Shown: positions 11,846-62,711 of the stretch, one piece after another
How the letters are laid out: the number at the start of each line of letters is the position of its first letter
How positions within the stretch are numbered: position 1 is the first letter of the stretch
Assembly: GCA_029933125.1 (NCBI GenBank)
Contig: JAOZOU010000004.1
Coordinates: 62,001-126,000 of the forward strand
Direction: 5' to 3'
From: a bacterium
Lineage (GTDB): Bacteria > Arandabacterota > Arandabacteria > Arandabacterales > Arandabacteraceae
DNA length: 64,000 nt
Notes under the pieces: generated by a model
Seen by the model: the letters and a program-made list of their open reading frames with translations, nothing else
Databases searched by the model: none
Told to the model about the DNA's origin: nothing
Position numbers and translations under genes: made by a program

Positions 11846-12415
11846 ATGGAGAAGCCTTTGGAAATAAGATGGCATGGCAGGGGTGGCCAGGGAGCGAAGA
11901 CTGCTGCCTTTCTGCTGGCTGAAGCCATGATTGAGCAAGGCAAGTATGCTCAGGGATTCCCCGACTATGGTCCTGAGCGTATGGGAGCTCCAATCAGAGG
12001 TTATAACAGGATAAGCACTGAGCCTATAAGGTTGCACTGCGACATCGAAAATCCTGAAATCGTCATTGTTCTCGATCCAACCCTTTTGAGAACGGAGAAT
12101 GTCGCTGGGGGACTTGTTGAAGGAGGCAAGATTCTCATAAACAGTCCAGCCGGTCCTGAAGAACTCAAGTCAGACTTGGATCTTGGTAACGGTTCGGTCT
12201 ATACGGTTGATGCAACCAGGATAGCGCTTGAGGAGGTAGGAAGACCCATTCCCAATCTTCCTATGATAGGTGCTTTGCTCAAGGTGAGCAATCTTGCTGA
12301 CATAGAAAGTATGACACGCATCGTCTCCAAGAAATTTGAAGGTAAGTTCAACAAGCAGGTGGTTGAAGGTAACCTAAAGGCTATGAAAAGGGCTTATCAA
12401 GAGGTAAGGGGATAG
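11846..12415 (+). CDS. porG: Pyruvate:ferredoxin oxidoreductase, gamma subunit
   Basis: This is the gamma subunit (189 residues) of the four-subunit 2-oxoacid:ferredoxin oxidoreductase. It shows IRWHGRGGQGAKTAAFLLAEA at the N-terminus, then GPERMGAPIRGYNRIS and the terminal helix region. The complex interconverts pyruvate plus CoA with acetyl-CoA plus CO2 using ferredoxin. It is the first of four genes in gamma-delta-alpha-beta order and starts 12 bases after recR, so the metabolic operon is embedded among DNA-repair genes. Confidence 0.93.
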   Translation: MEKPLEIRWHGRGGQGAKTAAFLLAEAMIEQGKYAQGFPDYGPERMGAPIRGYNRISTEPIRLHCDIENPEIVIVLDPTLLRTENVAGGLVEGGKILINSPAGPEELKSDLDLGNGSVYTVDATRIALEEVGRPIPNLPMIGALLKVSNLADIESMTRIVSKKFEGKFNKQVVEGNLKAMKRAYQEVRG

Positions 12416-12420
12416 TGAAG

Positions 12421-12723
12421 ATGAAAGGATGGAAAGAATTAGCGATAGGCGGAAGAATCGAAGAGGCGGGTAATGCTGTGGAATATGAGACAGGCTCATG
12501 GCGTACTTTCAGGCCAGTGCGCGATGATGAGAAGTGTATCCATTGTCTCCAATGCTGGATATCATGTCCTGACTCAGCAATAAAGGTAAAGGATGGGAAA
12601 GTAGTTGATATCGATCTCAACCACTGTAAGGGATGTGGTATATGTGCTGAGGTATGCCCGCCAAAAGTCCATGCTATTGAGATGGTTGAAGAAGCAGAAT
12701 TTGTTAAGAAGGAGAGCAAATGA
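12421..12723 (+). CDS. porD: Pyruvate:ferredoxin oxidoreductase, delta (ferredoxin) subunit
   Basis: This 100-residue subunit has two [4Fe-4S] motifs, CIHCLQCWISCP and CKGCGICAEVCPP, in the conserved RPVRDDEKC context of POR delta subunits. It passes electrons from the TPP site to external ferredoxin. ATG 12421 is chosen over GTG 12415 because AAGGGG lies about 8 bases before the ATG. It overlaps the alpha subunit by 4 bases. Confidence 0.93.
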   Translation: MKGWKELAIGGRIEEAGNAVEYETGSWRTFRPVRDDEKCIHCLQCWISCPDSAIKVKDGKVVDIDLNHCKGCGICAEVCPPKVHAIEMVEEAEFVKKESK

Positions 12724-13916
12724 TGGGAGCAGTCAAGGCTAGAAAATTGGTTGCCCTAACTGGCAACGATGCTGTTGCTGAGGCTATGCGACAGGTAAAT
12801 CCCGATGTTGTTGCTGCCTACCCCATAACACCTCAGACGGAATTGATGCACAAGTTCGCCGACTATGTTGCCAATGGTTTGGTCAATACCGAATTCGTAT
12901 TGGTTGAGTCCGAGCACAGCGCGATGAGTGCAGCTGTTGGGGCATCCGCAGCAGGTGCACGTGTGATGACTGCAACAAGTGCTAATGGACTGGCTCTCAT
13001 GTGGGAGATAGTCTATATAGCTGCCTCGACACGATGTCCTATTGTTATGGCTGTTGTCAATCGAGCTCTGAGTGCGCCGATAAATATCCATTGTGACCAC
13101 AGCGATTCCATGGGTACGCGTGATGCTGGCTGGATCCATCTCCACTCGGAGAACTCTCAGGAAGCTTATGACAATGCTGTTCAGGCTGTGAAGATCGCAG
13201 AACACAGAGATGTGCTTTTGCCTGTGATGGTTTGCCTAGATGGTTTCATTCTGAGTCATACGCTTGAAGCCGTTGAGGTACTCGAAGATGAAACTGTCAA
13301 GCAATTCATCGGGGAATTTCGTCCTGTGCATAACCTTCTTGACACCGACAAGGCTATGACCTTTGGGCCTCTCGATTTTCACGACTATTATTTCGAGCAT
13401 AAGATTCCTCAAATAATCGCCATGCAGAATGCTCATAAGGTCATTGATGATGTTGCTCGTGAGTATGCCGAGCTTACCGGTAGGCGCTACGAGCTTGTTG
13501 AAAAGTATAAGACTGATGATGCCGAGCGTATTGTTGTTGCACTTGGCTCAACATGTGGAACTGCGAAAGTTGTGGTTGATGAGCTTAGGGAGCAGGGCGA
13601 GAAGGTTGGCTTGCTCAAGATAAGAGTATTCAGACCCTTCCCCTACAATGAAGTCAGGGAAGCTCTTGCTCATGCCAAAGCAGTTGCCGTTCTTGACCGC
13701 TCCATGTCTTTTGGAGCCCAAGGCGGGCCTGTCTTGCTTGAGGTAAGGGCTGCTCTCTATGACAATGCTAGTGTTCCAACGAAGGGCTACATATATGGTC
13801 TTGGTGGACGCAATGTTTCACCCTCCCAGATTCGCAGAGCTTTTGAGGAGATCAAAGAGATTGCCAAAACTGGTCGAAGCAGCGATGAGATTGGTTTTCT
13901 TGGTGTAAGAGAATAG
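12720..13916 (+). CDS. porA: Pyruvate:ferredoxin oxidoreductase, alpha subunit
   Basis: This 398-residue alpha subunit contains the diagnostic AAYPITPQTELMHKFADYV and the ESEHSAMSAAVGASAAGARVMTATSANGL stretch. NRALSAPINIHCDHSDSM follows, and then the C-terminal transketolase-like domain (RIVVALGSTCGTAKVVVDEL). Sequence features favour pyruvate over other 2-oxoacids, though substrate assignment by motif alone is not absolute. ATG 12720 overlaps the porD stop; ATG 12723 is equally possible. Confidence 0.93.
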   Translation: MMGAVKARKLVALTGNDAVAEAMRQVNPDVVAAYPITPQTELMHKFADYVANGLVNTEFVLVESEHSAMSAAVGASAAGARVMTATSANGLALMWEIVYIAASTRCPIVMAVVNRALSAPINIHCDHSDSMGTRDAGWIHLHSENSQEAYDNAVQAVKIAEHRDVLLPVMVCLDGFILSHTLEAVEVLEDETVKQFIGEFRPVHNLLDTDKAMTFGPLDFHDYYFEHKIPQIIAMQNAHKVIDDVAREYAELTGRRYELVEKYKTDDAERIVVALGSTCGTAKVVVDELREQGEKVGLLKIRVFRPFPYNEVREALAHAKAVAVLDRSMSFGAQGGPVLLEVRAALYDNASVPTKGYIYGLGGRNVSPSQIRRAFEEIKEIAKTGRSSDEIGFLGVRE

Positions 13917-13926
13917 GAGGTCAGCA

Positions 13927-14874
13927 GTGCCTACACTTAAGGAACTTTCCAAGCGTGAGGACTTACTTGCACCCGGGCATCGAGCTTGCGCTGGTTGTGC
14001 TGCGACGATAATCGTGAGGCAAGTCTTACTTGCTGCTGGAAAGGATGTTGTTGTTGGATGTGCTACGGGTTGTCTTGAAGTTGTCACTACCATTTTCCCA
14101 TACTCTGCCTGGCGTGTTCCCTATATCCACAATGCATTTGAGAATGTGGCTTCAACAGTCAGTGGAGTGGAGGCAGCCTATCGCTCTCTTAAGCGCCAGG
14201 GCAAGATAAGTCGAGACATGCACTTTATAGCCTTTGGCGGAGACGGGGGAACATATGACATCGGGCTTCAGGCACTCTCGGGTGCAGCTGAAAGAGGCCA
14301 TCGTATGCTGTATGTCTGTTATGATAATGAAGCCTATATGAATACGGGTATCCAGCGTTCAGGCGCTACTCCTTTTGGTGCTGAAACTTCAACCTGCCCG
14401 GCAGGTGATGTTATCCCTGGCAAGACACAGTATCATAAGGACATGACGAGGATTATGGCTGCTCATAGGATTCCCTATGTTGCTCAGGCATCTCCAAGCC
14501 ACTGGAAGGACCTCGTCGCAAAAGTTGAGAAGGCTCTTTCAAAGGACGGTCCCAGCTTCTTAAATGTGATTTCCCCCTGCCACAGGGGATGGCGATATCC
14601 TATGGAAAAGACTATTGAGATTGCGAAGATAGCCGTTGACACCTGCTTCTGGCCACTCTATGAGGTTGATGAGGGAAAGTGGCACATAACATATGTGCCT
14701 AAGGAGAAGCTTCCACTAAGTGAATTTACTAGCAGACAGGGTAGGTTCGCTCACTTCAAGAAGCACCCTGAACTTCTGGAAGCCGCTCAGCAAGAGGTTG
14801 ATCGAAGGTGGCGCGAGCTTGAGGCTCTTGCGGGTATAAGCGATTCACCAGATGAAAGGCAATCCCGGGAATAG
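13927..14874 (+). CDS. porB: Pyruvate:ferredoxin oxidoreductase, beta subunit
   Basis: This is the TPP-binding subunit, 315 residues. PGHRACAGCAATIIVRQVL carries conserved cysteines. GDGGTYDIGLQALSGAAERGH is the TPP/Mg motif, and CYDNEAYMNTGIQRSGATPFG is the usual follow-on. The C-terminus contains SPCHRGWRYP. The start is GTG at 13927 with AGGAGG 5 bases upstream. It completes the por operon; pgpA begins 2 bases later. Confidence 0.94.
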   Translation: MPTLKELSKREDLLAPGHRACAGCAATIIVRQVLLAAGKDVVVGCATGCLEVVTTIFPYSAWRVPYIHNAFENVASTVSGVEAAYRSLKRQGKISRDMHFIAFGGDGGTYDIGLQALSGAAERGHRMLYVCYDNEAYMNTGIQRSGATPFGAETSTCPAGDVIPGKTQYHKDMTRIMAAHRIPYVAQASPSHWKDLVAKVEKALSKDGPSFLNVISPCHRGWRYPMEKTIEIAKIAVDTCFWPLYEVDEGKWHITYVPKEKLPLSEFTSRQGRFAHFKKHPELLEAAQQEVDRRWRELEALAGISDSPDERQSRE

Positions 14875-14876
14875 CA

Positions 14877-15356
14877 TTGACGGGAACTCGAAGCGATAGG
14901 CTTGCTAAAGTTGTTGGTACGAGTGTTTTCATAGGTCACTTCCCAATCTTCCCTGGGACGGTCGGGAGTCTGCCTGGGATTCTCATCTATGTCTTACTAT
15001 CCTTGAAGGTTGAAGCTTTTAGAGGATTCGGAATTGCGTGGCTCATACTTCTGGCAGCGATCTTACTTGGTGGTTCACTTGCAGCCCACCGGTGCGAGGA
15101 GCTCTATGGCAATGATGACAAGAAGATTGTCATCGATGAGGTGTGGGGAATGCTTATTGCACTTCAGGCTTTGCCGCTTGCTGTCAAATGGATAGTTGCT
15201 GCATTTTTCCTTTTCAGATTCTTCGATATCGTTAAGCCACCTCCTGCAAGGAAGGTTGAGCGGGTTGGAGGGGGAGTTGCCATCATGCTCGATGATGGTG
15301 TGGCAGGTATTTACACAGCCTTCATTCTCTATATTTTGAAAATCGCTTTTGGCTAG
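14877..15356 (+). CDS. pgpA: Phosphatidylglycerophosphatase A
   Basis: This membrane enzyme removes the phosphate from phosphatidylglycerophosphate to give phosphatidylglycerol. The 159-residue protein shows the family signatures GHFPIFPGTVGSLPG, KIVIDEVWGM, FFDIVKPPPARKVE and MLDDGVAGIYTA, with about four membrane segments. The TTG start at 14877 is 2 bases after the porB stop. Its presence shows that a standard bacterial glycerophospholipid pathway exists beside the isoprenoid-ether genes at 21.5-23.6 kb. Confidence 0.93.
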   Translation: MTGTRSDRLAKVVGTSVFIGHFPIFPGTVGSLPGILIYVLLSLKVEAFRGFGIAWLILLAAILLGGSLAAHRCEELYGNDDKKIVIDEVWGMLIALQALPLAVKWIVAAFFLFRFFDIVKPPPARKVERVGGGVAIMLDDGVAGIYTAFILYILKIAFG

Positions 15357-18921: not shown

Positions 18922-21532
18922 TGAACTGAGAAAGGTCTTTCTGGACTTCTTCAAGGAGCGAGGCCATACGATAGTCCCAAGCGCTTCGCTTGTTCCTGAG
19001 GGCGATCCGACTCTCCTTTTCAACGTTGCGGGTATGGTTCAGTTTAAGCAGTTTTATGCTGCGAAGGGACCTATTCCTTTTGTAAGGGCTGCTTCAGTGC
19101 AGAAATGCTTGCGCGCGACCGATCTTGAGGAAGTTGGCAAAACCATAAAGCATCATACCTTCTTTGAAATGCTTGGTAACTTCTCATTCGGGGACTACTT
19201 CAAAGAGGAAGCCATTGAGTGGGCATGGGAATTCATAACCGATGTTGTCAGGCTTTCACGTGAGAGACTCTCCATAACCATCTATGAGGAAGATGATGAG
19301 AGCGAGCGAATATGGACTGAGCGAATAGGCATAGAGAAAAGCAGGATTTACAGGCTCGGTAAGGAGGATAATTTCTGGGGACCGGCTGGGCTCACCGGTG
19401 CATGTGGGCCTTGTACTGAAATTCACTTCGATCTTGGTGAGGATGTTGGCTGTGGTCGTGATACGTGCTCACCGGGCTGCGACTGTGATCGTTTTGTTGA
19501 AGTCTGGAATCTTGTCTTTCCCCAATTCTATCAAGACGAGCAGGGCAAGTTGAGTCCACTTGAGAGGAAAGGTGTTGACACGGGGATGGGACTCGAGAGG
19601 CTCGCGATGGTGTGCCAGGGGGTGCGATCTACCTATGAAACCGATCTCCTCAAACCCATCTGTGATTTCGTAAGGGATATTGCTCCTGAGGCGAAGCATG
19701 ATGAAAGGAGTGAGGTTGCCGTAAGGGTTATTGCAGATCACTCGCGTGCTCTTTGCTTTGCAATAGGCGAGGGGGTTCTGCCTTCCAACGAGGGAAGGGG
19801 ATATGTCATCAGACGAATCTTAAGGCGGGCTGTCCTGAAGGGTCTTGATCTTGGCATAGAGGAGCCCTTCCTCTACAAAGTGATAGGCAAGGTGATTGAT
19901 GTGATGGGCAAGGCATATCCCGAGATAACAACAACTGCTGAGAAGGTTGCCCTCATTGTGAAATCGGATGAGGAACGCTTTCAGCGAACACTTTCGAGGG
20001 GGATGGCGATCTTCAAGCAGATGGTCGATGGGGCAAGAGCGGGTAGGTCTAAAGAGATCGCTGGAGAGGATGTCTTCAAGCTTTATGATACCTATGGTTT
20101 TCCTGTTGAGATAACCCAGGAGCTTGCAAAAAGCTATGGCATCGGTGTTGACATAGACGGCTTTCGCAAAGCCATGGATGACCAGCGAGAGCGCGCTCGC
20201 GAGCGAAGTCGCATAGGTAAGGAAGTTGATGTGCTTGAGGACATGGCAACTGTTCCTGAGAACTTCGTTGGCTACGATATGCTTGAGGTGCCGACCGTAA
20301 TCACCAAGATAAGAAGTGAAGGCAAGGAGATTGACCAAGCTTCGGAGGGCGAGAAGGTTTCAATTGAGCTTGAACGGACACCATTTTACCCCGAGGGTGG
20401 TGGTCAGGTTAGCGATGTCGGGACTATCATCGGCACAGAGAGCAAATCAAGTGTGACACATGTGAAGTGGGCTGGTGGCTCAAGGATTGAACACCATGTG
20501 CGAATAGACAGTGGCAGGATAAGACTGGGGGAAGGGGTTGTCGCTAAGGTTGATATTGAACATCGCAAGGCAACCCAGAGAAACCATACGGCTACCCACC
20601 TTTTGCATGCTGCCCTGCGATCGCTGCTCGGTGGTCATGTTCGTCAGGCAGGTTCTCTGGTTGCTCCAGATAGATTGCGCTTCGATTTCACCCACTATGA
20701 GCCTCTGAGTGACGAGGAGATAATTGCAGTCGAAGAAAGAGTGAACCGTAGGATTCTTGATAACATCCCCGTAAAAACAGCTATTGAGCCGTTTGAAAGT
20801 GCTCGGGCAAAAGGCGCTATTGCTCTCTTTGGTGAAAAGTATGGGCAGAAGGTTCGAGTTGTTGAAATTGAGGATACGAGCTGTGAGTTGTGTGGGGGAA
20901 CTCATGTGAGCAGGACGGGTGACATTGGCAGCTTCCGGATAGTTTCGGAATCAGGTATAGCTGCGGGGGTTAGAAGAATTGAAGCTGTAACAGGACTTGG
21001 TACCGTGAATTTCATGAGAGCTGTAACCCAGCGCCTCGAGCACATAAGCGAGATCCTCAGGGTTCCTGAACGTGACCTCGAGGAGGGGGCTCGTAAGATA
21101 TTGGCAAAGGTTGCTGACCTCGAGAAACAGGTGAGGAAACTTCGCCAACGCCTTGTAGCAATTGAAGTTGAGGAAATGATCAAGCAGGCTCATAAGGTAG
21201 GTTCGGTCGAGATTGTAACCAAGGCTATTGATGATGCAGATGTTGACCTTCTCAAGGACCTTGCTGATAGAGTGCGGCAGAAGTTAAGGTGCAGCGTGGT
21301 TGTTGTGGGCACAGCTGCTGCGGGCAGAGTGATTATCATTATTGGTGTTGATGATGAAGTCGTAAAGACTACAAGTATTAGAGCATCAACAATTGCCAAG
21401 CGTCTCGGGGAGATCGTTGGAGGTAGGGGTGGCGGAAGAGATACGTTTGCTCAGGCTGGCGGGAAGGATGCAACCAAGCTCGAAGCTGCCCTTGCCAGGG
21501 CTAAAGAGATTGTGGGTGAAATCCTTGGATAG
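18911..21532 (+). CDS. alaS: Alanyl-tRNA synthetase
   Basis: AlaS has 873 residues. The class II catalytic core opens ELRKVFLDFFKERGHTIVPSASLVPEGDPTL. The editing domain zinc motif is HTATHLLH, with later CELCGGTHV. The C-Ala domain is present at the end (GRGGGRDTFAQAGGKD). ATG 18911 with GGAAGGAAAAG upstream is chosen over an upstream in-frame start at 18845, since the conserved N-terminus begins MKADELRKVF. Its 3' end overlaps the small ferredoxin gene. Confidence 0.97.
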   Translation: MKADELRKVFLDFFKERGHTIVPSASLVPEGDPTLLFNVAGMVQFKQFYAAKGPIPFVRAASVQKCLRATDLEEVGKTIKHHTFFEMLGNFSFGDYFKEEAIEWAWEFITDVVRLSRERLSITIYEEDDESERIWTERIGIEKSRIYRLGKEDNFWGPAGLTGACGPCTEIHFDLGEDVGCGRDTCSPGCDCDRFVEVWNLVFPQFYQDEQGKLSPLERKGVDTGMGLERLAMVCQGVRSTYETDLLKPICDFVRDIAPEAKHDERSEVAVRVIADHSRALCFAIGEGVLPSNEGRGYVIRRILRRAVLKGLDLGIEEPFLYKVIGKVIDVMGKAYPEITTTAEKVALIVKSDEERFQRTLSRGMAIFKQMVDGARAGRSKEIAGEDVFKLYDTYGFPVEITQELAKSYGIGVDIDGFRKAMDDQRERARERSRIGKEVDVLEDMATVPENFVGYDMLEVPTVITKIRSEGKEIDQASEGEKVSIELERTPFYPEGGGQVSDVGTIIGTESKSSVTHVKWAGGSRIEHHVRIDSGRIRLGEGVVAKVDIEHRKATQRNHTATHLLHAALRSLLGGHVRQAGSLVAPDRLRFDFTHYEPLSDEEIIAVEERVNRRILDNIPVKTAIEPFESARAKGAIALFGEKYGQKVRVVEIEDTSCELCGGTHVSRTGDIGSFRIVSESGIAAGVRRIEAVTGLGTVNFMRAVTQRLEHISEILRVPERDLEEGARKILAKVADLEKQVRKLRQRLVAIEVEEMIKQAHKVGSVEIVTKAIDDADVDLLKDLADRVRQKLRCSVVVVGTAAAGRVIIIIGVDDEVVKTTSIRASTIAKRLGEIVGGRGGGRDTFAQAGGKDATKLEAALARAKEIVGEILG

Positions 21533-21728
21533 TGCTCGCGATTCTACCGCAGTTAGCATTAACTGTACCTGGGATTGTGGTGTTTGCAGTGCCGTATGTC
21601 CGGCCAACTGCATAGAGAACAAGGATCATGTTGTCAAGATACATCTTAGGGCGTGTCAGTTGTGCTTTGCCTGTCTGAAAGTGTGCCCGGCGGGGCTAAT
21701 CGGTGAGAGGGATCTTGAGCGGGTTTGA
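21516..21728 (+). CDS. Small 2[4Fe-4S] ferredoxin
   Basis: A 70-residue protein, with two cluster motifs. The first, CTWDCGVCSAVCP, has spacing Cx3Cx2Cx3CP, one residue longer than usual. The second, CQLCFACLKVCP, is canonical. The start is GTG 21516 or TTG 21525; both lie inside the end of alaS, and TTG has GGTGA about 5 bases upstream. It overlaps the following geranylgeranyl reductase gene, so an electron-donor role for that reductase is a reasonable inference. This fits what is known of some archaeal geranylgeranyl reductases, which use ferredoxin. Confidence 0.85.
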   Translation: MKSLDSARDSTAVSINCTWDCGVCSAVCPANCIENKDHVVKIHLRACQLCFACLKVCPAGLIGERDLERV

Positions 21729-22887
21729 TGTGATTGTTGTTGGCGGAGGATGTGCAGGTCTCTGGGCAGCTGTTTGCTCAGCCCGTGAAGGTGCATCCAC
21801 ACTCCTGCTTGAGAAGAGAGGTGAGATCGGAGATCGCATCATCTGCGCAGAAGGGGTTGGAGCAAGAGGGCTGGGTGCTATAATCCAACCTTCGAAAGAG
21901 TGGTTAGCCACATCCATTGATGGAGCAAAGCTCTGTGCACCTGATGGGCGCTGCTTCACCATCCGTCAACCTCGATGTGGCTATATCCTTGAGAAGGACA
22001 GGTTCCTTAAGGCCCTCGCAGAATTGGCTCGGAAAAGTGGGGTAAGCATCAGAACAAGGAGCAAGGCGAGCCTTCTGGGTTGTGGCGGTATGGTCTCACT
22101 CGAGATTTCGGACGGAAGCGCAACCGAGAGACTCCAAGCCCCTGCAATAGTTGCTGCAGATGGGATAAAGTCTGAGATCTCAAGGCAGGCAGGCATTCTC
22201 GGGAATCGCATACCTGATGAGATTTTCTCTTGTGCTCAGGATACCGTTGGGGGCATAGGAGTCAATCCCAATCTTGTTGAATTCCACTTTGGGAGTGCAA
22301 CAGCTCCTGGCGGTTATGCATGGGTTTTCCCTAAGGGTGAAACTCGGGCGAACATAGGAGTGGGTATAAGTCCTCACGATGGGAATCGAGACTGTGCAAC
22401 CAGCTATCTTGCAAGATTCAGGCTTAGGCAATATCCCGGGGGTTATGTCGAAAGACCCATTGTTGGCGGCGTTCCAAGTTTGAGGAATCCTTTCGCTGGA
22501 TGTGGCAAGGGCATCTTTACAGCAGGTGATGCGGCAGGGGTGGCAGATCCCATCTCTGGAGCCGGTATCGTTCCGGCTCTTGAGTCAGGTGCCATTGCAG
22601 GTAAGGTTGCAGCATCCTATGCCAAAGGTCAATTGAGTCTTGCTACTGCTGAGGAGGTTTATAGCCAGAGCCTACGCAAACTCTATCGCGACCGTAAACT
22701 GAGATTTGCAATTCGTAAGATGATGAGGGAGATGTCGGACACCGATCTTTCACGTCTGATCGCAAATTCTGCTGAGTTCTTTAAGAGAGGCAACAGCCTT
22801 GACGGTGACCCCATCAATCTCGTGAAGTTTCTTATAAAGGCTATGCCTGATATATTCAGATTAGTCAGACACTATGTGGGAGTGTAA
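21715..22887 (+). CDS. Geranylgeranyl reductase family flavoprotein
   Basis: This FAD-dependent reductase (390 residues) saturates isoprenoid double bonds. Visible parts are the Rossmann FDVIVVGGGCAGLWAAV, a CAEGVG segment, the family motif GGYAWVFPKGETRANIGVG, and GDAAGVADPISGAGI at the FAD end. TTG 21715 with GAGAGGG upstream is preferred; GTG 21703 is an alternative. It overlaps the ferredoxin gene by 14 bases and is 3 bases from GGGP synthase. Possible substrates are ether-lipid geranylgeranyl chains or quinone and carotenoid tails; the neighbour favours the first. Related FixC/halogenase-type flavoproteins are less likely because of the YAWVFPKG motif. Confidence 0.85.
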   Translation: MSGFDVIVVGGGCAGLWAAVCSAREGASTLLLEKRGEIGDRIICAEGVGARGLGAIIQPSKEWLATSIDGAKLCAPDGRCFTIRQPRCGYILEKDRFLKALAELARKSGVSIRTRSKASLLGCGGMVSLEISDGSATERLQAPAIVAADGIKSEISRQAGILGNRIPDEIFSCAQDTVGGIGVNPNLVEFHFGSATAPGGYAWVFPKGETRANIGVGISPHDGNRDCATSYLARFRLRQYPGGYVERPIVGGVPSLRNPFAGCGKGIFTAGDAAGVADPISGAGIVPALESGAIAGKVAASYAKGQLSLATAEEVYSQSLRKLYRDRKLRFAIRKMMREMSDTDLSRLIANSAEFFKRGNSLDGDPINLVKFLIKAMPDIFRLVRHYVGV

Positions 22888-22890
22888 TAG

Positions 22891-23631
22891 ATGAACGTCT
22901 ATGAGGAGATGCTTGCAGTCATTGACAAACGAGGCACCGGTTACATCGTTCTGCTTGATCCTGACAAGGCAAGCCCTGGCGAGATCGCAGAGCGAGCTTC
23001 TGAGGCAAGCGAATATGCAGATATCATTTTTGTTGGTGGGAGCATCTGTGTGAAGCATGATTTCAATGAAGCGGTCAAAAGCATTAAGAAGGCAGCGCGA
23101 GTTCCGGTTGTGATTTTTCCCGGTGACGCTACTCAGATCTCCCCTTATGCGGATGCGCTTCTTCTTCTATCCCTTGTCAGCGGAAGGAATCCCAATCTCC
23201 TCATTGGTGAACATGTAAAAGCTGCCCCAATCATAAAGCGCTATGGGCTTGAGGTAATACCCGTTGCTTATATCCTTGTCGATGGCGGAAAGACGACCTC
23301 GGTTCAGTTCATGAGCCAATCTCTAGCGATTCCTGCCGATAAGCCTGAACTCGCTGTTGCCCACGCGCTTGCTGGTCAATATCTCGGAATGAAGCTTGTC
23401 TTTCTTGAAGCTGGCAGTGGCGCTTCTAATACTGTAGCAGATGCCATGATTTCGGCTGTTTCGAGGGCAATATCACTTCCTGTGATAGTTGGAGGTGGAA
23501 TCAAGGCAGCAGATGTTGCTGCAAGACTTGCTCGAGCCGGAGCTGCCTTCATAGTTACAGGCGAGATTATAGAGGAGCAGGGAAACAAGGATATGCTCAA
23601 GGAGTTTGCTGACGCCATCCATTGGCGGTGA
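22891..23631 (+). CDS. Geranylgeranylglyceryl phosphate synthase (PcrB/GGGPS family)
   Basis: This TIM-barrel prenyltransferase joins sn-glycerol-1-phosphate to geranylgeranyl diphosphate by an ether bond. It has 246 residues. Motifs in order are YIVLLDPDKAS, IIFVGGSI, VPVVIFPGDATQIS, the long segment with YILVDGGKTTSV, VFLEAGSGAS, VIVGGGIKAADVA and AAFIVTGEIIEEQGN. The LEAGSGA form and length resemble group II enzymes found in Archaea and some Bacteroidetes, not the short Firmicutes PcrB. Chain length cannot be told by eye. It follows the geranylgeranyl reductase by 3 bases. Confidence 0.9.
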   Translation: MNVYEEMLAVIDKRGTGYIVLLDPDKASPGEIAERASEASEYADIIFVGGSICVKHDFNEAVKSIKKAARVPVVIFPGDATQISPYADALLLLSLVSGRNPNLLIGEHVKAAPIIKRYGLEVIPVAYILVDGGKTTSVQFMSQSLAIPADKPELAVAHALAGQYLGMKLVFLEAGSGASNTVADAMISAVSRAISLPVIVGGGIKAADVAARLARAGAAFIVTGEIIEEQGNKDMLKEFADAIHWR

Positions 23632-26611: not shown

Positions 26612-27244
26612 TTGAGCAAACCTGTACTGATTGGAATAGCGGGTGGAACAGGTTCTGGAAAGACCACTGTGGCAACTCTTGTCAAAGCCCGCTTCGGTGA
26701 TGAAAAGGTCATCATAATCCACCATGACTCCTATTACCGTGATAGGAGTGACATAAGCCCTGAAGAGAGGGAAAAGATTAACTATGACCACCCTGATGCA
26801 TTCGAGAACAGTTTACTTGTTGAGCACCTCAGGAAGCTTCTCAATCGCGAGTCAATTGAGATGCCAATATATGATTATGCGACTCATACGAGGCTACCGC
26901 AGACTAAACTCATTCAACCTGCTGAAATAATCTTGCTTGAGGGCATTCTGGTACTTGAGGACGAACGCCTCAGATCGCTCATGGACATAAAAATCTACAT
27001 TGAAACCGACGCTGATGAGAGATTCATTCGCAGATTCTTGAGGGATGTCAAGGAAAGGAAACGGACGCCTGATTCGGTTATTGAGCAGTATGTCAGCACT
27101 GTCAAACCAATGCACTTGCAGTTTGTGGAGCCAACAAAGCGTTATGCCGATATAATAATACCCGAGGGCGGGCACAACGCAGTGGCAATAGATCTGCTTG
27201 TTACGAAAATAAGGGACATACTGAGGAAAGCCGGACATGAATAG
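26612..27244 (+). CDS. udk: Uridine kinase
   Basis: Uridine kinase (210 residues) of the pyrimidine salvage pathway. It shows the P-loop [42 protein letters not shown] and [18 protein letters not shown] 26612 has GAGG 8 bases upstream and gives the normal N-terminus. An earlier in-frame start at 26576 would run into the upstream gene. It overlaps the prenyltransferase gene by 8 bases. Confidence 0.93.
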
Positions 27245-28130
27245 AATCGCTGCCTATGTCGAATCCTTGAGGCCGCTTCAGTGGACAAAGAACCTTGTCG
27301 TCCTGGCAGGCGTGATTTTTTCAAGGAATCTCTTCAGATCTGATATGTTGCTCACAAGTCTCGCAGCTCTCGGGATTTTCTGCCTTCTTTCAGGTGCGGT
27401 TTATGTCTTCAACGATGTCATTGATCTTGAGCAAGACAGGGCCCATCCAGTCAAGCGTAAGCGTCCGGTTGCAAGCGGGAGGATATCAAGGGCTGAGGCG
27501 GTTGGATTTGGAATCGCAGTTGGTGCAGCAGGTCTGATTTTGTCAATCTTTCTAAGCAGCAGTTTCTTCTGGGTTTGTCTCACCTACTTCATTATCAGCA
27601 TGGCTTATTCCTTTGCCCTCAAACACATGGTCGTCCTTGATGTGCTAATAATCTCGATTGGATTTGTTCTAAGAGCTATGGCTGGTGTCGAGGCTCTCAA
27701 AGATATTGATCCTCGTGTTGTCATGTCACCCTGGTTGCTCGTCTGCACCCTCTTCCTTGCTCTCTTTTTGGGTTTCAACAAACGCCGCCATGAGCTTGAT
27801 CTGCTTGCTGATGATGCTGGAAGGCATCGCAAGAGTCTCGACGATTACTCGAAAGAATTTCTTGATGCAATGATAGCGGTTGTCACAGCGGCAACTGTCA
27901 TAGCTTACTCGATCTATACGATCTGGCCTGAGACAGTCAATAAGTTCAACACGCGCAATCTCATCTATACTGTCCCTTTTGTCGTTTTTGGGCTCTTCCG
28001 CTATATGTATCTTGTGATCATGAGAAACAAAGGGGGCAGCCCTTCGGAGATCCTTGTCTCCGATATCCCGCTCGTTGTTGATATCATTCTTTGGCTGCTT
28101 GTTGCTGGGCTCATTCTTTATGAATCCTGA
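27237..28130 (+). CDS. UbiA-family prenyltransferase, decaprenyl-phosphate phosphoribosyltransferase-like
   Basis: Integral membrane protein of 297 residues with about eight or nine helices. It opens [21 protein letters not shown]. The first acidic motif is [24 protein letters not shown], and the second region is [21 protein letters not shown] with [24 protein letters not shown]. These match the DPPR synthase branch, which transfers phosphoribose from PRPP to a polyprenyl phosphate, rather than DGGGP synthase or quinone UbiA. prs lies 1.6 kb downstream. If correct, the product would be a lipid-linked ribose or arabinose donor. Confidence 0.8.
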
Positions 28131-28146
28131 AAGTCAGAGGTGTGGC

Positions 28147-29007
28147 TTGGCAATTGAAGTCAAGTGCCGAGCAAAAGTAAATCTCTTCCTGCGAGTGCTT
28201 GGCAGGCGCCAGGATGGCTACCATGAGGTTGAAACCATCTACCACTCAATTGAGCTCCATGACATCCTGAGATTGAAAGTCCAGAAAAGCGATATCACGC
28301 TTGTCTGCGATCATCCGCTTGTGCCTACCGATGAGACAAACCTCGCCTCCAAAGCTGCAAGGCGCATGCTTGAGGGCTACAGATATGGTGTGAGGATGAT
28401 GCTTGAGAAAAGGATACCCATTGCAGCAGGCTTGGGCGGAGGCAGTGCCGATGCAGCAGGTGCACTGGTTGGGATCAACAAACTCTACCGTATGGGCCTA
28501 TCCCTTCAAGATCTTGAAGAGCATGCTAGCGCGCTCGGAGCTGATGTGAAATTTATGGTAAGAGGAGGATGTGCAGTCGGCAGGGGAAGGGGTGAAGATC
28601 TCGATTTTCTTGAACCTCTCAATGGAATACCCGTTTTGCTGGTCGTTCCCGATTTAGCAGTAAGCACAAAATGGGCTTACGCAAGTCTCAAAATGGGGTT
28701 GACAAGGCCTAAAGCCAATCTTACTATGTTAGCGGACACTCTTAGAGGAGGGAAAATAGGCCAGCTGAAAGACCTCCTGTACAATGACTTCGAGAGTGTT
28801 GTCTTCGAGAGATACCCAATTGTTGCACAAATCAGGCATAAATTGCTGGAGAGTGGCGCATGTGCGTCATTGATGTCGGGCTCTGGACCGGTTGTTTTTG
28901 GAGTATTCCTTGAGGAGGGTGATGCCAGGAGAGCCAGCAAAGAATTGGCAAGCCATGGAAATAGAGTGATCGAGACAGCTTTTGCCACAAAAGGCGTGAC
29001 GGCATAG
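28147..29007 (+). CDS. ispE: 4-diphosphocytidyl-2-C-methyl-D-erythritol kinase
   Basis: GHMP kinase of the MEP isoprenoid pathway, 286 residues. The N-terminus is AKVNLFLRVLGRRQDGYHEVETIYHSI, the ATP loop is PIAAGLGGGSADAAGAL, and SLMSGSGPVVFGVF is near the end. TTG 28147 with AGAGGTG upstream gives the usual length; ATG 28120 inside the preceding gene is an alternative. It shows that isoprenoid precursors are made by the bacterial MEP route. spoVG follows, a common arrangement in bacteria. Confidence 0.92.
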   Translation: MAIEVKCRAKVNLFLRVLGRRQDGYHEVETIYHSIELHDILRLKVQKSDITLVCDHPLVPTDETNLASKAARRMLEGYRYGVRMMLEKRIPIAAGLGGGSADAAGALVGINKLYRMGLSLQDLEEHASALGADVKFMVRGGCAVGRGRGEDLDFLEPLNGIPVLLVVPDLAVSTKWAYASLKMGLTRPKANLTMLADTLRGGKIGQLKDLLYNDFESVVFERYPIVAQIRHKLLESGACASLMSGSGPVVFGVFLEEGDARRASKELASHGNRVIETAFATKGVTA

Positions 29008-61195: not shown

Positions 61196-62711
61196 ACGGC
61201 ATATCCTTTCCGCCTACTGGAAATCGAACACTGCCCTGGCGGTCACGGCCTGCATAGTCGCTGCTATATTCGCAATTCTTGCCTTTGATCCACTGCCATC
61301 GACAATTGGAGACAATGCTGAGTTTATGATCCTTGGCAAGGCTCTAGCAGGTGGATATGGCTATCGTTACATTAATCATCCTCAGTTGCGGCCAGCAACA
61401 AAGTATCCGCCTGGTTTCCCAATAATGCTTGCTGGCTGGATCAAGTTGTTCAGTGAGAAGATCGTTGCAATGAAGGCTCTCATCGTCATCACCTTTGCAC
61501 TTTCGATTCTTGTCTCCTTCTTCATTGCTAATCTGTTTCTTGAGAGAAAAATGGCTCTCGTAGCCACTCTTTCGATAGCAACATCCTGGGTGGTTGTGAG
61601 CTACTCCTATCAGATCCTCTCAGATGTTCCTTACACGCTGTTCAGTCTTGCGGGGCTTTTGTTCTTGCTGAGGGCTGACGACAGCCTTAAGGCCCTCATC
61701 GGGGGAGGTCTTTCAATCTGGGCTTATCTTGTCAGGACTGTTGGCGCAAGTCTCGTAATCACAGGAATAATCCTGCTTGTCCTGAGGAAGCGCAAGAAGG
61801 AAGCCATTGTCGTTCTGGCTTGCTTTGTTGCGATTACTGCATTATGGGCCTGGAGAAATTACATTCTGACAGGTGAGGGCAGTCGCTATGTGAGGCTGCT
61901 TCTTGAAGCCCAACCCATGAATCCCTCAGCTGGGCATGTCACATTCGGTAGCCTTGCCAGGAGGGTTTGGATAAATCTGAGAGATTATGTGAGCATCTTC
62001 CTTCCTGCCAACCTCTTGCCAACCCTCGTTGTAGGCTCAGCGAAAGGTGGAGGCCCTATTACAAGGTTTGTGGGCTTGCTCATAATGGCTGGTGTTGTCG
62101 TGGGAATGGTCTCATTGCGGCGGAAGGCCCGCTGCATTGTAGCATATGTCCTTCTCTATTTTGGGGTTTACCTCGTCTGGCCAGAGATATGGAGGACAGA
62201 GCGATTCATGCTTCCAATTGCACCTCTGATAGCAATCTTCTTTTTTTCCGGATTAAAGCGCATATTGGGCTACTTCGCGGTGAAGCGCAGGATTGTTACT
62301 GCTGTTTGTATAGTTCTTGTAATTTCAAATTTCATCTCCCTCGTAGGATTTATGAAGCGTGAGACAGGATACCCACCAGGTTGGTACAATTATCTTCAGA
62401 TAGCACTTTGGGTGAGGGAGAATACACCAGAGGACTCACTTGTTATATGTCGCAAGCCTTTTCTGTTCTATGTCTTCAGCTATCGCAAGACGATTGGTTA
62501 TCCCTACACACGTGACCACGAAGCCATGCGTAACTTTCTCAGCGAGATTGCGCCTGATTACATTGTTATTGACAACTTTGGTAGTATCTCACAAACCACG
62601 CAAGTGTATCTCTTGCCAGTCCTCAGGGAGATGTCTGGTTCTCTTGAGGTGATTTATTCAACTGACGATCCTGTGAACGTCCTTCTCAAATTCAAAGCCA
62701 GGCGAGGTTGA
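61158..62711 (+). CDS. GT39/PMT-like membrane glycosyltransferase
   Basis: A 517-residue GT-C protein with about ten helices. The first loop has STIGDNAEFMILGKALAGGYGYRYINHPQLRPATKYPPGFPIMLAGWI, with the acidic residues typical of ArnT/PMT enzymes. SDVPYTLFSLAGLLFLLRA and LVRTVGASLVITGIILL follow. Unlike its neighbours it lacks a TPR tail. ATG 61158 or ATG 61167 is the start. Its stop overlaps the next start (TTGA). Confidence 0.85.
   Translation: MTQMKKGKPPKHKRHILSAYWKSNTALAVTACIVAAIFAILAFDPLPSTIGDNAEFMILGKALAGGYGYRYINHPQLRPATKYPPGFPIMLAGWIKLFSEKIVAMKALIVITFALSILVSFFIANLFLERKMALVATLSIATSWVVVSYSYQILSDVPYTLFSLAGLLFLLRADDSLKALIGGGLSIWAYLVRTVGASLVITGIILLVLRKRKKEAIVVLACFVAITALWAWRNYILTGEGSRYVRLLLEAQPMNPSAGHVTFGSLARRVWINLRDYVSIFLPANLLPTLVVGSAKGGGPITRFVGLLIMAGVVVGMVSLRRKARCIVAYVLLYFGVYLVWPEIWRTERFMLPIAPLIAIFFFSGLKRILGYFAVKRRIVTAVCIVLVISNFISLVGFMKRETGYPPGWYNYLQIALWVRENTPEDSLVICRKPFLFYVFSYRKTIGYPYTRDHEAMRNFLSEIAPDYIVIDNFGSISQTTQVYLLPVLREMSGSLEVIYSTDDPVNVLLKFKARRG

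Follow-up and report, generated by a model that had tools for sequence, protein, structure and literature searches.

A ferredoxin, a geranylgeranyl reductase and a GGGP synthase encoded together: probable components of archaeal-type ether-lipid synthesis in a bacterium

The question raised by this locus is whether three adjoining genes of a bacterium, encoding a ferredoxin, a geranylgeranyl reductase (GGR) and a geranylgeranylglyceryl phosphate (GGGP) synthase (GGGPS), take part in the synthesis of archaeal-type ether lipids. The genes lie at positions 21516–23631 of the window, by which we mean the whole stretch of 64,000 nucleotides that was analysed (positions 62,001 to 126,000 of contig JAOZOU010000004.1, assembly GCA_029933125.1, family Arandabacteraceae). 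An earlier note, made from the sequence of the window, had proposed such lipids in a possibly mixed membrane and had singled out the ferredoxin as the less described part. We consider it probable that the cassette supplies the GGGPS and chain-saturation steps of archaeal-type ether-lipid synthesis in a bacterium of the Fibrobacteres–Chlorobi–Bacteroidetes (FCB) group, operating beside ordinary bacterial lipids. The proposal stands as far as GGGPS, GGR and digeranylgeranylglyceryl phosphate (DGGGP) synthase (DGGGPS) are concerned, all three being encoded in the genome, but not for glycerol-1-phosphate (G1P) dehydrogenase (G1PDH) or CarS. GGGPS and DGGGPS occur together in this one bacterial genome, as in the published FCB pathway, for which G1PDH is not defining.

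The open reading frame (ORF) coordinates, together with curated and Pfam models, bear out the arrangement and the identities of the three genes:

21516..21728, plus strand: 2[4Fe-4S] ferredoxin of 70 aa (Pfam Fer4), the proposed electron donor of GGR
21715..22887, plus strand: GGR of the digeranylgeranylglycerophospholipid (DGGGPL) reductase type, FAD-dependent (TIGR02032, Pfam GGR_cat)
22891..23631, plus strand: GGGPS of group IIb (TIGR01769, Pfam PcrB)

All three are co-directional. The ferredoxin ORF starts with GTG and overlaps the end of the upstream alaS gene by 17 nt, the GGR ORF starts with TTG and overlaps the ferredoxin gene by 14 nt (an alternative GTG start at 21703 is possible), and GGGPS begins 3 nt past the end of GGR.

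The GGGPS scores 211.9 bits against TIGR01769 (cut-off 161.55) and 276.3 against PRK04169.1-2 (cut-off 247). Its matches to the group II structures 4jej and 4mm1 have E values of about 1e-46 to 1e-48, compared with about 1e-8 for the group I/PcrB structures 1viz and 3vzx, and in the GGGPS tree the protein falls into a 57-row bacterial group II clade with an SH-aLRT support of 100. The group-II-like character proposed earlier is confirmed by these matches and the tree, which place the predicted enzyme in group IIb and not in group I/PcrB.

The GGR exceeds the TIGR02032 cut-off narrowly (159.8 versus 158.8 bits). In hidden Markov model (HMM) comparisons it scores 154 bits with the DGGGPL reductase of Thermoplasmatales, 71 with BchP and 36 with MenJ, the latter having been compared by HMM only. 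Its closest solved relative by sequence is the DGGGPL reductase of T. acidophilum (3oz2, E 4.5e-47), which is also the best PDB fold for the AlphaFold model (pLDDT 90, TM 0.89). The reported YAWVFPKG motif is present as GGYAWVFPKG and the catalytic positions are invariant: the active-site Cys44 and the signature P-G-G-Y-x-W-x-F-P (PxxYxWxFP; PGGYAWVFP in the window) are shared by 23 bacterial and archaeal GGRs. In a 68-row tree (from a quick IQ-TREE run, SH-aLRT as the only support measure) the family of the window belongs to a 20-row bacterial clade (support 98) with Zixibacteria, TA06 and UBP14, which is related to the archaeal GGR clade and lies away from BchP. The reductase thus groups with archaeal and bacterial DGGGP-type GGRs, as the earlier reading would have it, and by these comparisons it appears to be of the DGGGP type, apart from the (bacterio)chlorophyll and menaquinone reductases.

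The genome to which the window belongs (G000) is a draft, 96.7% complete and 0.25% contaminated, with the window on a 344-kb contig. It encodes four UbiA proteins, one of which, at G000:C152:183570-184421, is a DGGGPS on the same contig, about 98 kb from the cassette and next to an undecaprenyl-diphosphatase-like gene. Its sole PDB relative is the digeranylgeranylglyceryl phosphate synthase 6m31 (E 1.1e-27), and a profile made from it and its relatives recovers archaeal DGGGPSs with E values of 1e-31 to 1e-52 in most archaea tried. DGGGPS is present also in G002, G004 and G005, three of the five genomes of the same family (G001–G005) that were compared along with one of the same order (G006) and one of the same class (G007). 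The UbiA protein at 27237-28130 of the window itself was rejected as a DGGGPS because it is decaprenyl-phosphate phosphoribosyltransferase-like (277.6 bits, cut-off 234); of the other two, one is MenA-like and one received no assignment.

The ferredoxin requires separate consideration. We surveyed 80 GGR loci among the matches listed, taken without regard to their neighbours, four of which were cut by contig ends. A two-motif ferredoxin stands beside GGR or is fused to it in 56 of the 76 informative loci, in bacteria as well as in archaea: in 53 it lies directly upstream (as a separate gene in 45, fused to the N-terminus of GGR in 8), and in three it lies downstream. The 53 upstream matches compare with 0.13 expected from the frequency in the rest of this DNA. 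By the two-motif pattern 20 of the 80 loci show no neighbouring ferredoxin, at least one of them (L095) having a degenerate ferredoxin downstream of GGR. The loci span Zixibacteria, Marinimicrobia, Gemmatimonadota, Chloroflexota (some fused), UBP14 (fused), Calditrichota, Fibrobacterota, Methanocellales, Methanoperedens, Thermoplasmata and Hadarchaea. The pairing occurs in 16 of 22 GGGPS-positive and in 21 of 25 GGGPS-negative bacteria (Fisher p 0.48). It is general, being found in most informative loci with or without GGGPS, and since it is independent of GGGPS the ferredoxin belongs to the reductase rather than to the ether pathway as such. For the same reason we rejected the ferredoxin as an indicator that ether lipids are made. 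By analogy with these loci the window ferredoxin is very likely the electron donor of GGR, and the survey suggests that ferredoxin pairing, natural fusions included, is the usual feeding route for this type of GGR in both bacteria and euryarchaea.

GGRs carrying a 2[4Fe-4S] ferredoxin at the N-terminus as a natural fusion were seen in L099, L102, L126, L128, L150, L154, L155 and L163 (Chloroflexota, UBP14 and other bacteria); a literature search of limited scope found no paper on bacterial fusions of this kind. No GGGPS was detected in the four fusion-bearing Chloroflexota genomes, so their GGR may serve another isoprenoid. Fifteen bacterial metagenome-assembled genomes (MAGs) that encode this GGR as well as a UbiA of the DGGGPS type likewise have no PF01884 GGGPS match (L091, L095, L098, L103, L110, L112, L113, L117, L122, L147, L161 and others), owing either to gaps in the MAGs or to a different first-ether enzyme.

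The partnership is not as little described as the earlier note had it. According to PMC4244643 and PMC9385802, the GGR of M. acetivorans saturates archaeal lipid in Escherichia coli only together with its own upstream ferredoxin (Isobe et al. 2014), and archaeal GGRs are grouped by ferredoxin-type neighbours in a review (PMC10821996). In the window, as in the M. acetivorans locus described there, a small ferredoxin gene adjoins a DGGGP-type GGR. The host here, however, is a bacterium, and all archaeal relatives seen have a ferredoxin with a canonical motif 1; nor do the available parts of these three sources describe the M. acetivorans pair as joined to a GGGPS. Mixed-lipid potential and the ferredoxin partnership are both known in general, and one new detail is the arrangement, with GGGPS joined to ferredoxin and GGR.

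The ferredoxin itself is unusual. Motif 2 is the canonical CxxCxxCxxxCP, but motif 1 reads C-x3-C-x2-C-x3-C (CTWDCGVCSAVCP), so that the protein has one canonical CxxCxxCxxxC motif instead of two while retaining all eight cysteines. The form C-x-W-x-C-G-x-C-x3-C is found in 6/6 genomes of the family, whereas motif 1 is canonical in all 56 other GGR-linked ferredoxins. In the AlphaFold model (pLDDT 81) the fold is kept, the nearest folds being clostridial 2[4Fe-4S] ferredoxins; because the eight cysteines and the modelled fold are kept, we class the protein as a variant. Cluster binding is not readable from the model. The altered first motif CxWxCGxC looks new.

A second peculiarity concerns the GGGPS active site. 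According to PMC9385802, Y134, Y178 and E180 of the Mt GGGPS are strictly conserved and are the main determinants of stereospecificity and catalysis; by alignment, Y178 and E180 correspond to Y and E in the motif FYLEAGSG of 4mm1. The equivalents of Y134 and E180 are kept in the window protein, and that of Y178 is Phe in 6/6 family members, a substitution that keeps the aromatic ring. Among 69 sequences, Phe occupies this position in 12/59 bacterial and 0/10 archaeal GGGPSs, the six family members being among the 12. In a separate pattern, the E180 position is Asp in 9/59 bacterial and 0/10 archaeal sequences, scattered over the tree (e.g. L167, L175, L186, L188, L310, L311, L317, L008, L173). 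The minimum numbers of changes on the tree, in whose building the trait columns were included, are 6 for Y178 to Phe and 8 for E180 to Asp. Since 13 further bacterial group IIb sequences outside the family break Y178 or E180, the Tyr-to-Phe change weakens the case for canonical G1P specificity but not the one for membership by descent. Phe in place of the stereospecificity-setting Tyr in this family looks new.

Several observations weigh against an ether-lipid role. No PF13685 match, and hence no detectable G1PDH, was found in the 96.7% complete genome G000, and the search of G001–G005 and G007 gave only AroB-like, other-dehydrogenase-like or unrelated weak matches; the same search gave at least 120 bits in 9/9 archaeal genomes and at least 98 bits in 4/24 GGGPS-positive bacteria. 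The DGGGPS of G000 scores 155 bits, below the NCBIfam equivalog cut-off of 296, and no DGGGPS was found in G001 (85% complete) or G003 (94% complete), both of which carry the cassette. The GGGPS departs from the published Tyr/Tyr/Glu set in one of its three residues. Finally, the ferredoxin–GGR pair alone is no evidence for ether lipids, as it is equally common without GGGPS. No CarS was detected in G000: the search returned a single match, the bacterial CdsA, whose gene sits in a uppS-cdsA-dxr run (gene names by inspection).

These observations leave room for the GGR–ferredoxin pair to serve another isoprenoid, such as a menaquinone side chain, a polyprenol or a carotenoid-like lipid, with GGGPS adjacent by chance. 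The frequency of the pair in GGGPS-negative bacteria fits this explanation, as do the known substrate promiscuity of GGR (PMC9385802) and the presence in G000 of a MenA-like UbiA protein whose gene adjoins that of a long-chain polyprenyl diphosphate synthase. Nevertheless, the family GGR is a single clear copy with GGGPS directly downstream of it wherever the contig shows, neither GGGPS nor a clear GGR was found in the order-level relative G006 (83% complete), and the HMM scores given above favour DGGGPL reductases over MenJ and BchP; on balance we regard this alternative as unlikely. We find it quite improbable that the product of GGGPS is a minor monoether, whether GGGP itself or some longer prenylglyceryl lipid in the manner of Bacillus PcrB, instead of a membrane diether: the lack of G1PDH and CarS and the two cassette-bearing relatives in which DGGGPS went undetected would agree with it, but the enzyme is of group II and not of the PcrB group I, and DGGGPS is encoded in G000, G002, G004 and G005. 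That the enzymes work in the reverse direction or serve to salvage archaeal lipids from neighbours, as has been raised for FCB lineages without G1PDH (PMC6431249), is hardly credible, given that FCB GGGPS and DGGGPS catalyse synthesis when placed in E. coli (PMC7852524) and that a reductase with its own electron donor would make little sense in catabolism.

We also rejected archaeal contamination or recent transfer, because the cassette lies in a 344-kb contig flanked by bacterial genes, its GC content (0.50-0.51) equals that of alaS and recA, the cluster is common to the family, and both GGR and GGGPS fall within bacterial clades.

The ether-lipid pathway as the destination of the cassette thus appears sound at the gene level. 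As to its electron path, lipid product, chain length and backbone (G1P or glycerol-3-phosphate, G3P), we infer the following scheme. An isoprenoid diphosphate, presumably geranylgeranyl diphosphate, would come from the methylerythritol phosphate (MEP) pathway and the long-chain polyprenyl synthase; the group IIb GGGPS would join it to a glycerol phosphate, and the DGGGPS encoded elsewhere on the contig would add the second chain. The bacterial CdsA and head-group enzymes, PgpA of the window among them, could then finish the polar lipid, with the FAD-dependent GGR hydrogenating the chains by means of electrons from the upstream ferredoxin, itself probably reduced by ferredoxin-reducing enzymes such as the pyruvate/2-oxoacid:ferredoxin oxidoreductase (POR) encoded in the window. 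The neighbouring genes referred to are:

11846..14874, plus strand: porC-porD-porA-porB, POR, a plausible source of reduced ferredoxin
14877..15356, plus strand: pgpA, phosphatidylglycerophosphatase A, a bacterial head-group step
18977..21532, plus strand: alaS, the upstream neighbour, with its 3' end overlapping the ferredoxin start
28054..29007, plus strand: ispE, MEP-pathway isoprenoid precursor synthesis

Bacterial pgpA and ispE accordingly stand in the window as the earlier note had stated, and the bacterial lipid enzymes PlsY, CdsA and PgpA are all encoded in G000.

Ether-lipid genes in FCB bacteria have been published before (Villanueva et al., PMC7852524; Coleman et al., PMC6431249): GGGPS and DGGGPS occurred in 12/12 FCB phyla surveyed and G1PDH in two (PMC6431249), and FCB GGGPS and DGGGPS proved active in E. 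coli (PMC7852524). The gene set of G000 resembles that of Ca. Cloacimonetes and other FCB bacteria in combining GGGPS, DGGGPS, GGR, the MEP pathway and bacterial lipid genes, and that of the Cloacimonetes MAGs in having neither G1PDH nor CarS (PMC7852524). Unlike in Cloacimonetes, where GGGPS is co-localised with DGGGPS, GGGPS stands here with GGR and ferredoxin, far from DGGGPS, and it carries the Tyr-to-Phe change. The GGGPS of Flavobacterium johnsoniae (4jej), the best PDB match of the window protein and a member of the same bacterial group II clade, keeps the tyrosine.

Research on the lipid divide has yet to settle which source of G1P, and which enantiomer, serves bacteria that carry archaeal lipid genes. 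The cassette offers a compact test of this question, combining a changed stereospecificity residue, a genome without a known G1P source and a reductase with its own electron donor, and the Tyr-to-Phe change opens the handedness of the lipid product to a direct test. Judged from the alignment, this change is suggestive of a relaxed or altered choice of glycerol phosphate where G1PDH is missing, and some use of G3P in vitro has been reported for the Cloacimonetes GGGPS (PMC7852524). All four G1PDH-bearing bacteria keep the tyrosine, but this sample is too small and we therefore claim no correlation. A bolder proposal, which we hold to be rather doubtful, is that FCB lineages without G1PDH may have lost the stereospecificity Tyr hydroxyl (and others the length of the catalytic Glu) because their GGGPS adapted to the bacterial enantiomer, the isoprenoid ethers then being built on sn-glycerol-3-phosphate and saturated by a dedicated ferredoxin–GGR pair. 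Ferredoxin pairing of GGRs is also of practical use for engineering saturated archaeal lipids. The four strong G1PDH-type matches belong to Chitinispirillaceae, Fibrobacter, a Latescibacterota MAG and the isolate CSMAG_1299 (L279, L280, L290, G072:C36), which are candidates, on their gene content, for a complete G1P-based pathway in bacteria.

The order alaS-fdx-ggr-gggps recurs in 5/5 relatives of the family as far as the contigs extend: fdx-ggr-gggps is seen in G001, G002, G004 and G005, and in G003 alaS-fdx-ggr and ggr-gggps lie on separate contigs. In G007, of the same class, alaS is followed by GGGPS without fdx-GGR between them. GGGPS directly 3' of alaS was found in several distantly related bacteria as well (e.g. 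L001, L008, L011), alaS being a conserved GGGPS neighbour in several other bacterial groups; the family of the window has fdx-GGR inserted between the two. GGR and GGGPS are adjacent and overlapping in Hydrothermota (L142). Downstream of GGGPS in the window there follow, nearly without gaps, a sugar nucleotidyltransferase gene, an rmlD-like gene and a phosphoheptose-isomerase-like gene. In a TA06 bacterium (L087) the genes after GGR-GGGPS include an rmlD-like one and resemble this order. The AlaS tree places the window protein among TA06, Krumholzibacteriota, UBP1 and one Latescibacterota sequence. The phosphoribosyltransferase-like UbiA protein at 27237-28130 is 68-84% identical within the family.

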